Assembly (NCBI GenBank): GCA_946887025.1
Contig: CAMPJY010000007.1
Coordinates: 1 to 35,512 of the forward strand
Reading direction: 5' to 3'
Source: an uncultured Salinimicrobium sp.
GTDB lineage: Bacteria; Bacteroidota; Bacteroidia; Flavobacteriales; Flavobacteriaceae
DNA length: 35,512 nt
The position numbers were made by a program, and so were the translations under genes. Every line of letters begins with the position of its first letter. Position 1 is the first letter of the stretch. The notes beneath the pieces are model-generated. The model worked only from the letters and a program-made list of their open reading frames with translations. It had not been told where the DNA came from and did no database searches. This document shows positions 4,124-31,050 of the stretch, piece by piece.

Positions 4124-5308
4124 TTAAGAGTCTATTGCCTTAATTCCCGGCAGGCTCTTCCCTTCCAGCATCTCCAGCATCGCGCCACCGCCTGTGGATA
4201 CGTAACTTACCTCGTCCTGCAGATTGTATTTTTTTACGGCTGCCACAGAATCGCCTCCGCCCACTAAGGAGAAAGCTCCTGCCTTGGTGGCGCTGGCTAT
4301 GTGTTTTCCCACTTCGATGGTCCCCTTGGCAAAAGCATCCATTTCGAATACGCCCATGGGACCATTCCAAAGAATTGTCTTTGATTCTTGAATGATCCTT
4401 CCAAAGGTGTCAATTGTTTCCGGACCAATGTCAAGTCCCATCCAACCGTCTGGAATTTCGGAAACCTTGACTACCTCGGTGTTGGCAAATTCAGAAAAAC
4501 TGTCGGCTATTACTGCATCAACAGGGATATGAACCTGTACCCCCTTCTCTTTCGCAGCCTTGAGTATATCCAGTGCCAGCTCCTGTTTATCCTCCTCGAC
4601 AAGGGAATTTCCGATCTTTCCGCCCTGGGCTTTTATGAAGGTATAGGTCATTCCACCCCCGATGATGAGATGGTCCACCTTATCGAGTATATTCTCTATA
4701 ACGGTAATTTTTGTAGAAACTTTTGCACCCCCTAAAATTGCTGTCACAGGTTTCTCTGAATTTCCCAGAACCCGTTCCAGGCTTTCAATTTCTTTGGCCA
4801 GCAGAAGACCGAAACATTTATCTTCAAAGTAGTTGGCCACTATGGTGGTAGAAGCGTGGGCCCGATGGGCGGTCCCAAAGGCATCGTTTACATAGATATC
4901 TCCAAGGTCTGCCAGTTTTTGGGCGAAAGCAGGGTCTCCTTTTTCCTCTTCCACGTGGAACCTCAGGTTTTCAAGAAGTAATACTTCCCCCGGTTCCAGG
5001 GCTTCCGCAGCTTTTCTGGCTTCTTCCCCAATGCTGTCCGAAACAAATTTCACATCGACCCCAAGAATTTCCGACACTTTGGAACGAATATGCTTGAGGG
5101 AAGATTTCTCTTCCACGCCTTTCGGCCTGCCCAGGTGGGACATCAGGATGGCACTTCCGCCGTCATTCAAAATCTTCATGATGGTTGGCTTGGCGGCCTC
5201 TATTCTGCTGGTATCCCCTACTTCCTGCGCCTCGTCCAGGGGCACGTTAAAATCTACCCGGATCAGGGCCTTTTTATTTCTAAAATCAAAGTCGTTTACA
5301 GTCTTCAT
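4124..5308 (-). CDS. pgk: Phosphoglycerate kinase
   Basis: A 394-residue cytoplasmic enzyme of the usual bacterial length. It transfers phosphate from 1,3-bisphosphoglycerate to ADP in glycolysis and the reverse in gluconeogenesis. Family motifs are visible in order: the N-terminal [61 protein letters not shown], then the nucleotide-side [19 protein letters not shown] and the C-terminal [14 protein letters not shown] and [14 protein letters not shown]. The ATG at 5308 lies 17 nt after a TATATTTG -7 element. It probably leads a pgk-mltD-DUF4837 transcription unit. Confidence 0.98.
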
Positions 5309-8708: not shown

Positions 8709-8724
8709 TGTTCCACGTGGAACT
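8709..8724. promoter_or_regulatory. parS: parS-like centromere site (copy 1)
   Basis: TGTTCCACGTGGAACT holds the perfect 14-bp palindrome GTTCCACGTGGAAC (8710-8723), closely related to the ParB-binding consensus TGTTNCACGTGAAACA. It lies in the mnmG-methyltransferase gap, 1.94 kb from a second, fully symmetric copy. Confidence 0.82.
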
Positions 8725-8766: not shown

Positions 8767-10638
8767 TTATCGTCCCATGTACACCAGAAGAACCGAAATA
8801 TCGTTCGGACTTACCCCGCTTATTCGGGAAGCCTGTGAAAGGCTGGTCGGTTTAATCTTCTTTAATTTCTCCCTCGCCTCATAGGACATGGATTTGATCC
8901 TTGAGTAGTCAAATTCCGATGGGATTTTTATATCCTCCAGCCGGTTTAGTTTATCCGCATTGTTCTTTTCCTTTTCAATATAACCCGAATACTTCACCTG
9001 AATCTCGGTCTGCTCAAGAACCTCCTCATTCAAATCATGGGTGCTAATATATTCATTCACCCCACTGAACCTCCTCACATCATTCATCTCAATATTGGGT
9101 CGGGAAAAGATTTTGAACATCTTGTCGCTTTGTTTCACCGGAGCGGAATCCTTTTCTTCCAGAACCGCATTGGCCTCTTCAGGGGCCACACTGGTGTCCT
9201 TAAAGAACTGTACAAAAGCAGCAGATTTTTCCCTCTTCTCTTCCATCTTCCGCATACGTTCTTCTTTGGCCAACCCTATATTATAAGATTTTTCCGTTAA
9301 CCTGAAATCCGCATTATCCTGCCTTAAAAGGGTCCTGTATTCCGCCCTGGAAGTAAACATTCGATAAGGCTCCTCGGTTCCTTTTGTAATAAGATCGTCT
9401 ATAAGAACTCCAATATAAGCCTCATTCCTCTGAAGCACAAATTCCTCTTTTTCCTGAACTTTCAGCGCAGCGTTTATACCGGCCATCAGACCCTGCGAAG
9501 CAGCTTCCTCGTATCCGGTAGTTCCATTGATCTGCCCTGCAAAATAAAGTCCCTCCACCAGTTTGGTTTCCAAGGTGTGCTTTAACTGAGTGGGTGGAAA
9601 GTAATCGTATTCTATCGCATAGCCGGGACGGAAGAACTTCACCTTCTCAAATCCCGCAACAGATTTTAGCGCTTTAAACTGTACATCTTCCGGCAGGGAA
9701 GTTGAAAAGCCGTTGATATACATCTCCACGGTTTTCCAGCCTTCAGGTTCAATGAATAACTGGTGCCTGTCCTTATCCGCAAAACGATTGATCTTATCTT
9801 CTATGGAGGGACAGTACCGTGGTCCAATACTCTTTATCCTTCCATTAAACATGGGGGACCTGTCAAAGCCTTCCCTGAGGAGGTCGTGAACCTCCGGAGA
9901 AGTGTAGGACATATAACAGGAGCGCTGAACTTTTAAGGGAGAAGTTTCATCTAAATAGGAAAACTTACCCGGCACATCATCCCCTGGTTGTTCCACCATT
10001 TTGGAATAATCCAAAGACCTCCCATCTACCCTGGGAGGGGTCCCGGTTTTCATTCTTCCGGCTTCAAAACCTATTTGCACAAGCTCCTCAGTGATCCCGG
10101 TGGCAGCTCTTTCTCCTGCCCTTCCGCCACCAAATTGTTTGTCGCCAATATGGATAAGTCCATTCAGGAAAGTACCATTGGTTAGCACCACACTTTTCCC
10201 GCGCACCTTAACTCCAAGAGAAGTTTTCACGCCCACAACTTTTCCGTTCTCCACCAGCAATCCGGCTACCATCTCCTGATAAAAATCAAGGTTCTTTGTC
10301 GCCTCCAACCGCAGTCTCCAGTGTTCCGCAAACATCATCCGGTCGCTCTGCACCCTCGGACTCCACATGGCAGGTCCTTTGGATTTATTGAGCATCTTGA
10401 ATTGAATGGCGCTGGTATCACTTACCAAACCGCTATACCCCCCAAGCGCATCAATCTCCCGAACGATTTGCCCTTTTGCGATCCCACCCATTGCGGGATT
10501 ACAACTCATCTGGGCAATATTCTGCAGGTTCATGGTAATAAGAAGCGTTGAGCTCCCCATGTTCGCGGCAGCGGCAGCGGCTTCACTTCCCGCATGTCCG
10601 GCACCAACTACTATAACGTCATATTCTTTGTCAAACAT
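8767..10638 (-). CDS. mnmG: tRNA uridine-5-carboxymethylaminomethyl modification enzyme MnmG (GidA)
   Basis: A 623-residue FAD protein of the normal length for the family. With MnmE it installs the cmnm5 group at the wobble uridine of several tRNAs. Visible motifs: the dinucleotide fold [12 protein letters not shown] (residues 10-21), [85 protein letters not shown] and the C-terminal [18 protein letters not shown]. The ATG at 10638 lies 10 bp after the ybeY stop codon. mnmG commonly sits near chromosome origins, and here it is bracketed by two parS-like sites. Confidence 0.98.
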
Positions 10639-10648
10639 AAAATTTCTT

Positions 10649-11080
10649 CTATTGTTCCACGTGGAACATTTGCATTTTTTCCTCTTCCTTCTGCCGCATC
10701 AGCGACTGCTCCTCTTCCGATTTGTCCTTATATCCGCAGAAGTGCAGAATGCCGTGAGCCATTACTCTTCGCAATTCCTCCTGAAATTCTACCCCATATT
10801 CAGCGGAGTTTTCCGAAACCCTTTCGATGCTGATGAAAATATCCCCCTGAAGGATGTTCCCGATACAGCTGTCAAAACTGATGATGTCGGTATAGGTGTC
10901 GTGATTCAGATATTTCTGATTGATCTCCAATAAGTATTGGTCGTCACAAAATATATAACTTACTTCCTCCAGCTCTTTTTCTTCTGAAGAGATAACCTTT
11001 TTCAACCACTCCTCATAGGAATCGTGGTCGTTAAGATTAAAGTCGTTTTCGAAATAAAAATTAATGATCCCGGCGTTCAA
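10649..11080 (-). CDS. ybeY: Endoribonuclease YbeY, rRNA maturation factor
   Basis: A 143-codon reading with the UPF0054/YbeY core: [37 protein letters not shown] and the metal-site segment [16 protein letters not shown]. Two histidines of the usual HGxLHxxGYDH site are present, but the third is not at the normal position (GYKDK), a variant I recall in Bacteroidota. The start is uncertain: no ATG exists before the active site. The TTG at 11080 is used here, but ATC (11066-11068) or ATT (11063-11065) better fits homologues starting MINFYFE. It overlaps the DUF4175 gene by up to 20 bp, and its last six codons (MFHVEQ) are encoded by a parS site. Confidence 0.9.
10653..10668. promoter_or_regulatory. 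parS: parS-like centromere site (copy 2), inside the ybeY 3' end
   Basis: The perfect 16-bp palindrome TGTTCCACGTGGAACA matches ParB-site consensus apart from its symmetric half. It overlaps the last ybeY codons, encoding MFHVEQ, and ends just before the stop codon, 15 bp upstream of mnmG. Confidence 0.86.
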
Positions 11081-21786: not shown

Positions 21787-21860
21787 GGCATCGTGGCCGA
21801 GTGGCTAGGCAGAGCTCTGCAAAAGCTCGTACAGCGGTTCGAATCCGCTCGATGCCTCCA
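21787..21860 (+). tRNA. tRNA-Cys (anticodon GCA)
   Basis: A complete cloverleaf: 7-bp acceptor stem GGCATCG / CGATGCC, D-arm GCCGAGTGGCTAGGC, anticodon stem GAGCT / AGCTC with loop CTGCAAA (anticodon GCA), and T-arm GCGGTTCGAATCCGC. Discriminator U73 is typical of tRNA-Cys, and CCA is encoded (21858-21860). Confidence 0.97.
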
Positions 21861-26053: not shown

Positions 26054-26296
26054 ATGAAAGATTTCCACACGCTGGCCATATTTACCTATCCTCATGAATT
26101 CGCGGTGCTAAAGCTGCTGCTCGAACAGGAGGACATTCGTCATTATTTTCTCAACGAAATGACCATTGGCGTATTCCCTTTCTACTCCAATGCCCTGGGT
26201 GGGATTCACCTCAAGGTGCACAGTTCGGATCTTTCAAGGGCGCAGGAAATCCTGGACAGAATGGACGACCACTTCCCTCCACTCAAGATCGTCTGA
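26054..26296 (+). CDS. DUF2007 domain protein (putative signal-transducing protein)
   Basis: An 80-residue small soluble protein. The pattern TLAIFTYPHEFAVLKLLLEQ ... VHSSDLSRAQEILD matches PF09413 (DUF2007, 'putative prokaryotic signal transducing protein'), a ferredoxin-like fold related to PII-type proteins. The function is unknown. It is the last gene before the 600-bp non-coding region. A small palindrome (26318-26335) follows. Confidence 0.75.
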   Translation: MKDFHTLAIFTYPHEFAVLKLLLEQEDIRHYFLNEMTIGVFPFYSNALGGIHLKVHSSDLSRAQEILDRMDDHFPPLKIV

Positions 26297-26317
26297 AGAA
26301 AACAGCCAAACTCCATA

Positions 26318-26335
26318 AACGCGATTTATCGCGTT
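26318..26335. repeat. Short palindrome after the DUF2007 gene
   Basis: AACGCGA-TTTA-TCGCGTT forms a 7-bp stem with a 4-base loop, 22 bp after the stop codon and without a T-run. It resembles dispersed short palindromes of flavobacteria (recollection). Confidence 0.6.
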
Positions 26336-26370
26336 CCTACCTGATCTTCTGACTTCGGACTTCGGACTCC

Positions 26371-26865
26371 CTACTCACTTATCAACACTTATTAATATTA
26401 ATCTTTCTTTTCTTTTTTAAAAAATTAAAATCTGCTGTCTATTATTGTCTGTTGATAGGTGCAATAACTTTTTCAAGTTTCTTTTGGTTTTTACCCGGGA
26501 ATTTTCTGTGAACCGATTGTGAACATATTGTTAATTTTTCAAGGCCTTGATTTCTAAGCTAATTTTAGTTTTTATTAACAACTGTTCATAATTTCATGTG
26601 AAACCAAAAGGCTGATAATTTTCAGAAATTTTTCTGTTCACAAGCAAATTTTTGCTGCTCATAACTTCTCCAGAAAAAAGGAATAAAATATTTGGTTCCC
26701 CCATTTTTTAGTGCCTATTGGAAATTATTGCGAAGAAACCAAATGTGATTTTAAAAATTTCATCTCATTTTATGAACAAAATATCAGGTTTTATAAGAGC
26801 TTCATTTTTAGCTTTTTGTAACATTTAATTAACATAGCTTTTCAAACTAGTTAATAAGGCTATTT
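26371..26865. other. oriC: Candidate chromosomal replication origin (oriC-like)
   Basis: Part of the 599-bp gene-free spacer (26297-26895). An AT-rich tract at about 26388-26430 could be a duplex-unwinding element. DnaA-box-like nonamers: TTATCAACA (26379-26387, +), CTATCAACA (26450-26458, -), CTGTGAACC (26506-26514, +), TTGTGAACA (26517-26525, +), TTATGAACA (26583-26591, -), TTGTGAACA (26635-26643, -), TTATGAGCA (26656-26664, -) and TTATGAACA (26770-26778, +). All have A where the E. coli box TTATNCACA has C, so the assignment depends on this lineage's DnaA tolerating that. AACCAAA occurs at four places in alternating orientation. Confidence 0.5.
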
Positions 26866-26866
26866 T

Positions 26867-26874
26867 TACCTTTG
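26867..26874 (+). promoter_or_regulatory. -7 promoter element for rpiB
   Basis: TACCTTTG ends 21 nt before the rpiB ATG, so most of the spacer upstream is not in the rpiB transcript. Confidence 0.5.
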
Positions 26875-26895
26875 TTTAACGTTAATCACATACAA

Positions 26896-27327
26896 ATGAA
26901 AATCTCCATAGGAAACGACCACGCCGGGACTGACTATAAATTTGCCATTGTCGAGTACCTTAAAGAAAAAGGTTTTGAAGTTAATAATCACGGAACCGAT
27001 TCTGCCGACAGTGTCGACTATCCGGATTTTGTACATCCGGTAGCTAAGGATGTACAGGATAAGCAGGCCAATTTCGGGATCATCATCTGTGGCAGCGGAA
27101 ATGGTGCTAACATGACGGCCAACAAACATCAGGGCGTGCGTTCTGCCCTTTGCTGGAACAAGGAGATCACTGAACTTGCACGGGAACATAACGATGCCAA
27201 TGTACTCAGTATTCCTGCGAGATATACCTCCCTCCCACAGGCCGTGGAAATGGTGAAGGTATTTCTGGAAACCCCATTTGCCGGAGGAAGGCATTCCAGA
27301 AGAGTGGAAAAAATAGCCTGCAATTAA
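26896..27327 (+). CDS. rpiB: Ribose-5-phosphate isomerase B
   Basis: A 143-residue RpiB/LacAB-family isomerase (ribose-5-phosphate to ribulose-5-phosphate, pentose phosphate pathway). The N-terminus is MKISIGNDHAGTDYK, with the catalytic cysteine region FGIIICGSGNGANMTANK (the IICG cysteine) and AREHNDANVLSIPAR with the conserved asparagine. The start is the ATG at 26896; an earlier start at 26872 would begin inside the promoter box. Allose-phosphate isomerase activity is a known side role of the family. The GNAT gene follows 10 bp later. Confidence 0.93.
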   Translation: MKISIGNDHAGTDYKFAIVEYLKEKGFEVNNHGTDSADSVDYPDFVHPVAKDVQDKQANFGIIICGSGNGANMTANKHQGVRSALCWNKEITELAREHNDANVLSIPARYTSLPQAVEMVKVFLETPFAGGRHSRRVEKIACN

Positions 27328-30537: not shown

Positions 30538-30933
30538 TTACAGCACCCTGTCTCCTTGTTCTGAATTTAATTCTGAACTGGAAAATCGTTTCAAAAGCTC
30601 CTCCATGACTTCAAAAATTTCATGGTAACCATCCTTCTGTTTGCCGACATAGATAAACAGGAAGGCAAAACATTGCCCGTTGGTGTGGACAAGATACTTA
30701 TTTTTTCGATAAGCCTCCCGCATAAGACGCTTTAAATGAGTCCGGTCCACGGCTCTTTTGAAATTGCGTTTTGGAACTGAGACCGCTGCCTGGTGCTGCC
30801 TGAGGTCCTCCCGTTCCAGGGGAAGGTATACCAGCCTCAGCGGGAATTTCTTCATGAATTTCCCCTCTTCGAACAGGCGGCTGATCAATATTTTACTCTT
30901 TAGTTTTTCTTTTCGGCCAAAGCTTTCCTCCAT
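30538..30933 (-). CDS. rnpA: Ribonuclease P protein component
   Basis: A 131-residue protein from the ATG at 30933. The RnpA core is visible: FGRKEKLKSKILISRLFEEG, FPLRLVYLPL, VSVPKRNFKRAVDRTHLKRL and MREAYR (the RNR-type signature). It assists RNase P RNA in 5' maturation of tRNAs. An earlier ATG at 30960 would place the -7 box TAATTTTG (30939-30946) inside the coding region, so 30933 is chosen; this leaves only 5 nt between the box and the start. rpmH and dnaA are not adjacent, unlike many bacteria. Confidence 0.95.
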   Translation of the reverse strand: MEESFGRKEKLKSKILISRLFEEGKFMKKFPLRLVYLPLEREDLRQHQAAVSVPKRNFKRAVDRTHLKRLMREAYRKNKYLVHTNGQCFAFLFIYVGKQKDGYHEIFEVMEELLKRFSSSELNSEQGDRVL

Positions 30934-30938
30934 GTCGG

Positions 30939-30946
30939 CAAAATTA
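30939..30946 (-). promoter_or_regulatory. -7 promoter element abutting the rnpA start
   Basis: TAATTTTG on the minus strand, followed by CCGAC and the ATG. It implies a very short or absent 5' leader. Confidence 0.45.
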
Positions 30947-31050
30947 GAAATTTTATGCATAGAATTCTCTATTCTCCTGATTTCTCCAAGGCAATGTTAA
31001 AATAATACAAATACGGGAAAACCCCTATAATCAATTTCTTACATAAGCAA

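Follow-up and report, generated by a model that had tools for sequence, protein, structure and literature searches.

Chromosomal origins of the DnaA-dependent E. coli and B. subtilis type combine clustered 9-bp DnaA boxes and an AT-rich tract with nearby parS sites and a difference in GC skew across the site. Canonical boxes are usual in such origins without being required, DnaA boxes often being species-specific, according to the available text of PMC10225481, in which Ori-Finder 2022 is given the defaults of a TTATCCACA box and dnaA as indicator gene. The basal unwinding system (BUS), in the accessible part of its description (PMC8287927), consists of a DnaA box, a spacer of up to 16 bp and at least three NAN DnaA-trios. 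The DnaA residues that contact individual bases include 432-435, and lineage-specific recognition in epsilonproteobacteria has been tentatively tied to helix 5, position 435 included (PMC5043019, in excerpt).

Ori-Finder predictions have been published for single relatives of the organism considered here, including Elizabethkingia (PMC8994065) and Tenacibaculum (PMC4759079). The predicted origin of Elizabethkingia meningoseptica is 649 bp long and holds three boxes that differ from TTATCCACA at no more than one position, and dnaA lies 1.87 Mb away along the printed coordinates (PMC8994065). That of Algorimicrobium, also predicted by Ori-Finder, is labelled 'oriC (mnmG)' in a figure legend (PMC12843772), while Blattabacterium is reported to lack both DnaA boxes and dnaA (PMC2768785); the texts behind these statements were available in part. 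Among the literature matches listed, none treats TTRTNAACA as a flavobacterial box or ties it to DnaA residue 435, and DoriC may hold a prediction at this place; none pairs rpiB with oriC in flavobacteria, and those for the nonamers concern, by title, other organisms only.

The locus described here is a 599-bp gene-free spacer in a window of 35,512 nucleotides, the window being the whole stretch of DNA that was analysed. With a probability of about 0.93 we take the spacer to be the chromosomal oriC of a flavobacterium related to Salinimicrobium. The initial annotation had proposed a chromosomal oriC from the window, and the proposal is now supported by conservation of the boxes and, in relatives, by GC skew, 16S orientation and parS proximity. 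An oriC is in itself an ordinary object; what sets this one apart is a lineage box, a place before rpiB far from dnaA, and a matching residue in DnaA. The spacer and its immediate neighbours hold the following features:

26054..26296, + strand: DUF2007-like gene, left neighbour (Pfam 25.3 bits, just below the cut-off of 25.7)
26297..26895, no strand: spacer, very probably oriC, between the DUF2007-like gene and rpiB
26379..26387, + strand: box 1, TTATCAACA, bordering the AT tract on its left; at the aligned position Salinimicrobium has TTGTCAACA and Psychroflexus TTATCCACA
26388..26430, no strand: AT-rich tract of 43 bp, 91% A+T, candidate unwinding element
26431..26449, + strand: stretch corresponding to the conserved core ATGATGGTTATTATAG, after the AT tract and before box 2; partly degenerate, by eye
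26450..26458, - strand: box 2, CTATCAACA, differing from TTRTNAACA at one position and directed into the AT tract; position conserved
26506..26514, + strand: weak box CTGTGAACC
26517..26525, + strand: box TTGTGAACA, exact TTRTGAACA
26572..26580, + strand: box TTATTAACA, further exact TTRTNAACA
26583..26591, - strand: box TTATGAACA, exact TTRTGAACA
26635..26643, - strand: box TTGTGAACA, exact TTRTGAACA
26656..26664, - strand: weak box TTATGAGCA
26770..26778, + strand: box TTATGAACA, exact TTRTGAACA; aligned with TTATCCACA in Psychroflexus
26867..26874, + strand: TACCTTTG, possible -7 element of an rpiB promoter, directly before rpiB
26896..27327, + strand: rpiB, right neighbour (Pfam match)

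The spacer has 29.5% GC against 45.5% for the whole window, and its DnaA-box-like nonamers are clustered beyond chance. All four exact copies of TTRTGAACA in the window lie inside it, at 26517 (+), 26583 (-), 26635 (-) and 26770 (+), as first annotated, where 0.021 would be expected, and 0 of 5000 dinucleotide shuffles reach four. The wider pattern TTRTNAACA occurs six times, on both strands, against 0.135 expected (six again reached by 0 of 5000 shuffles); the five further copies in the window include no pair closer than 600 bp and none at mnmG. The starts of CTGTGAACC (26506) and TTGTGAACA (26517) are indeed 11 bp apart, the spacing originally reported. The exact canonical box TTATNCACA is absent from the spacer and present once elsewhere in the window. 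Rfam matches at the gathering threshold are likewise absent from the spacer, the sole one in the window being a tRNA at 21787-21857; within 26200-27000 no terminator-like site was found and promoter-like sites number 3 against 2.5 expected.

The locus thus has the clustered 9-bp boxes, AT-rich tract and nearby parS of the E. coli and B. subtilis type, and in relatives the skew difference across the site, but unlike that type the spacer has no exact TTATNCACA, its boxes carry A at position 6, its neighbours are rpiB and a DUF2007-like gene, and dnaA lies 0.8-2.0 Mb away in relatives. With the predicted origin of Elizabethkingia meningoseptica it shares the size class, near-TTATCCACA boxes and a distant dnaA; the difference is that box mismatches are not read as a lineage box in the available part of that report (PMC8994065).

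The AT tract sits between the inward-pointing boxes at 26379 (+) and 26450 (-), so that the flanking pair described in the initial annotation holds, and the tract is also present in aligned relatives. When the window was aligned with 16 chosen relatives, the order box 1, AT tract, ATGATGGTTATTATAG-like core and box 2 was kept in most rows, and at a right-hand aligned box Psychroflexus has TTATCCACA where the window has TTATGAACA. In the relatives a trio-like core, ATGATG..TATTATAG, accompanies a box that points into the AT tract, and this is the point of likeness to the BUS as outlined in PMC8287927; the trio register differs from the 3'-GAT-5' consensus found in the accessible text of that source, and the window's own core, which keeps TATTAT and has CTGCTG instead of the relatives' ATGATG, contains only two clear trios by eye. 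A placement rule located the element in 50 of the 61 spacers tried, some of the 50 being visibly misplaced, and in these the longest NAN run was 3.42 against 2.64 in shuffles (0/200 sets); with the element so placed, ATGATG was found in 16/50 spacers and TATTATAG in 15/50.

The comparison across related genomes that had been suggested as a check bears out the conservation of both the spacer and its TTRTNAACA boxes among the closest relatives. With rpiB as query, 80 loci were retrieved, the nearest Salinimicrobium at 80-81% and genome G022 reaching 83%. Exact TTRTNAACA is present in the gap upstream of rpiB at 48 of the 53 closest loci (L001-L053), and this gap is at least 393 bp long in 47 of the 53, two of them cut by a contig end. 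Among the five loci without the exact pattern is the Psychroflexus locus L040, which has six TTATNCACA. The patterns TTRTNAACA and TTRTNCACA both start from the motif of the initial annotation; as a check, a 9-mer count made with no prior motif placed TTATCAACA first, in 26 of 52 spacers (the window's included) against 0.90 expected. The spacers of G090 and G113 hold two exact TTRTNAACA only, the same as a few random windows.

The A in place of C at box position 6, which the initial annotation had taken to mark a lineage-specific box, is accompanied by a matching difference in helix 5 of DnaA. By codon pattern the helix reads R-D-H-A-T-V-L-H in 141/149 genomes of the family, the Ala falling at the position of E. 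coli Thr435, and 6/149 match neither pattern; Ser at the fourth place occurs in 4/397 genomes, two of them among the 149. The comparison of box with residue used 62 DnaA rows, 61 of them with a spacer. In six Ser genomes there are 30 TTRTNCACA (C6) and 4 TTRTNAACA (A6) boxes, and in 55 Ala genomes 30 C6 and 155 A6 (Fisher p 3.6e-16, kinship ignored); G090 and G113 both carry Ala. A6 exceeds C6 in 41 of 46 Ala spacers outside an eight-row outgroup clade, the reverse in none, and of the five ties four are boxless, neither box type being present in the 600 bp before rpiB in Ala genomes G014, G039, G119 and G406. Fourteen farther rows were left out: Ser/Thr rows G410, G416, G423 and G429, which have neither box type; G421; and nine Ala rows (G412, G417, G420, G422, G424, G425, G426, G428, G432) with 4 C6 and 8 A6 in total. 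An EM motif search of the six Ser435 spacers returned TTATCCACA with C at 0.91 at position 6; run on the Ala435 spacers, it wandered off to a diffuse motif rich in A and T, with 28 sites in each spacer and A at 0.80 at position 6, and that result carries no weight here.

We lean towards a joint shift across most Flavobacteriaceae, to DnaA Ala435 together with A6 boxes, Ser435 lineages such as Psychroflexus having C6 boxes at the same origin; Ala at position 435 would then favour A over C at box position 6. The parallel to the epsilonproteobacterial case lies in helix 5 and position 435, and the difference in the box, where T at position 5 is stressed for H. pylori in the available part of PMC5043019 and position 6 differs here. 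A live rival, to which we give a little under an even chance, is that Ala435 has no specific tie to A6 boxes, reading at position 6 being relaxed or the two being separate lineage marks. In 54 Ala435 spacers A6 boxes number 153 against 14.5 in shuffles, and C6 (30 against 4.5) and G6 (20 against 3.2) are enriched as well, which relaxed reading would accommodate, but T6 is not (11 against 11.05); C6 in the Ser spacers numbers 30 against 0.47. Uncoupling also gains from two of the eight Ala rows of the outgroup clade (G413, G419) and the left-out Ala row G422, all with C6 exceeding A6, and from the other helix residues that differ in 4/6 Ser rows. Residue 435 changes at least three times on a quick DnaA tree with helix 5 masked, on which some relevant Ser and Ala rows (G101, G407) are long branches; independent contrasts come to only two pairs, a point for the uncoupled reading, but both run in the direction expected of coupling (sign test p 0.5). 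Coupling is further favoured by the exchange of A6 for C6 at aligned boxes. Mixed cases are G037 (Ser), with 3 and 3, and G407 (Ala, Psychroflexus halocasei), with 2 C6 and 3 A6. The Ser435 pattern has five matches among 296 genomes of the order (G442, G455, G466, G186, G358), of which G442, G455 and G466 (L333-L337, L339) form a separate Ser435 lineage with helix RDHSTVIHS and lack both A6 and C6 boxes in the 700 bp preceding rpiB; their origin may lie elsewhere, and they are neutral on the link. The joint change of residue and box remains the preferred reading. If it is true, the main bacterial initiator has undergone a natural switch of specificity, with the origin about 1 Mb or more from dnaA. 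A real link between residue 435 and box position 6 would also allow DnaA's reading of its box to be probed by changing one residue, with natural genome pairs available on both sides, and would give a starting point for building oriC plasmids for flavobacteria.

The position of the origin was judged by GC skew, which the initial annotation had named as a check. The window alone has no skew switch (left -0.102, right -0.038). In relatives, 20 samples of 20 kb were taken in each of six genomes and compared left and right of rpiB, giving -0.038/+0.063 in G001 (Salinimicrobium, 960-kb contig), -0.067/+0.090 in G029, -0.102/+0.113 in G154, -0.034/+0.044 in G069, -0.026/+0.014 in G113 and -0.032/-0.005 in G090. 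The sides thus differ in 6/6 genomes (one-sided p from 9e-5 to 0.013), and pooled values are -0.050 on the left (n=59) and +0.053 on the right (n=61; p=9e-16). With candidate splits of the circle placed every 20 kb, the best one lies at 2.50 Mb against rpiB at 2.498 in G154 (1.5 kb off), 0.90 against 0.911 in G029 (11 kb), 1.94 against 1.967 in G113, 2.80 against 2.741 in G069 and 1.10 against 1.025 in G090, the share of splits scoring better than rpiB being 0% in G154, 1.0% in G029, 6.3% in G113, 1.7% in G069 and 5.3% in G090. In the sampled relatives, then, a skew switch exists at the scale of the arms, its transition on the rpiB side being smeared across the first tens of kb; the two sides differ as an origin would have it, but there is no sharp switch at the spacer itself.

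This blur is uneven. On the parS/mnmG side, confirmed directly to be the parS side in five of the six genomes, the first 20-kb sample has its own arm's sign in 6/6; across rpiB, 5/6 genomes still show the sign of the parS-side arm in their first sample (G154 has the right one), and in G090 and G113 later rpiB-side samples are also of the wrong sign. Gene orientation may be the cause of the persistent sign. In 5/6 genomes the sign of the parS arm carries on 10-20 kb past rpiB, as it does in the right flank of the window.

The 16S genes agree with an origin near rpiB. Of 30 genomes searched, 21 were counted, in which a 16S gene lies on the near-genome-size contig of rpiB, the other nine having the gene elsewhere or none; partial matches were included and pieces of one gene counted once. 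Genes pointing away from rpiB number 47 of 48, the single exception being in G113, whereas random origins give 24.0 and at most 43 in 20000 draws. No 16S gene lies in the window. An origin at dnaA was rejected: it fits 5 of 36 16S genes, and rpiB fits 35 of the same 36 (15 genomes). In 15 single-contig relatives dnaA is 814-2021 kb from rpiB, not adjacent to the spacer. The two Ori-Finder 2022 defaults, box and dnaA indicator, would both mislead in Flavobacteriaceae. Contig 1 starts at dnaA in G029, G090, G125, G137 and G155, where the origin signals are 0.9-2.0 Mb away. G155 (C1:1143997-1144197, 186 aa) and G428 (C39:195132-195329, 166 aa) each have an additional, short open frame whose DnaA C-terminal domain scores above the Pfam cut-off.

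Partition sites and further neighbours of the spacer in the window are these:

8709..8724, no strand: parS with one mismatch, downstream of mnmG
8767..10638, - strand: mnmG/gidA, between the two parS sites (Pfam match)
10653..10668, no strand: exact parS, within the 3' end of ybeY, upstream of mnmG
30538..30960, - strand: rnpA (Pfam match)

Pfam confirms mnmG and rnpA as the usual neighbours had been named. Of the two parS sites first placed 16-18 kb from the spacer, which flank mnmG 1.94 kb apart, that at 10653-10668 is exact, but that at 8709-8724 carries a mismatch. In relatives the exact pattern TGTTNCACGTGNAACA occurs at 30 sites in 18/22 genomes, all 6.0-55.4 kb from rpiB, and is absent from the other 4/22. 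Exact parS pairs about 1.9 kb apart were seen in 8/22 relatives (G036, G039, G047, G053, G069, G090, G113, G130).

That the spacer is instead a datA- or DARS-like titration or reactivation site, with the true origin in another place such as mnmG/parS, dnaA or a point some tens of kb past rpiB, we consider very improbable. The 'oriC (mnmG)' label in the Algorimicrobium legend, the legend being the part of PMC12843772 concerned, speaks for such a displacement, but a switch at mnmG is disfavoured since, in each of the six genomes, even the first sample on that side agrees in sign with its arm. The poor fit of the 16S genes to dnaA argues against an origin there. The unswitched first sample beyond rpiB in five of six genomes means that, as far as skew goes, a switch some tens of kb past rpiB would fit too; against this, no other TTRTNAACA cluster was found near rpiB in the sampled stretches, where a count of TTRTNAACA alone gave four other places with three copies within 600 bp in 2.4 Mb, none of them less than 200 kb from rpiB. 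The slimmest chance of all attaches to the boxes being an operator for a regulator of rpiB or the DUF2007 gene, with the nearness of the origin incidental: the promoter-like TACCTTTG right before rpiB, the conserved k-mer CAAAGGTA (19/52 spacers against 0.95 expected) and the blurred skew on the rpiB side would suit it, but the boxes are spread over 400 bp on two strands as far as ~520 bp from rpiB, Psychroflexus has TTATCCACA at the aligned positions, and skew, 16S orientation and parS converge nearby. We take TACCTTTG at 26867-26874 to fit the Bacteroidota promoter -7 element TAnnTTTG.

Under the oriC reading, DnaA, encoded far off in relatives, would bind the TTRTNAACA nonamers through helix 5 of domain IV, and the window's own DnaA would presumably do so here. 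By analogy with known origins, oligomers growing from the box pair 26379/26450 would open the AT tract next to box 2, helicase would be loaded on both sides of the opened tract, and the parS sites 16-18 kb away would mark the origin for ParB.

Two minor features of the window may be added. A third parS-like palindrome, with two mismatches, lies at 4947-4962 inside an ORF at 4124-5308 (-) that by eye encodes phosphoglycerate kinase. An imperfect short tandem repeat of GACTTCG occupies 26350-26370, near the end of the DUF2007-like gene and outside the conserved part of the spacer.
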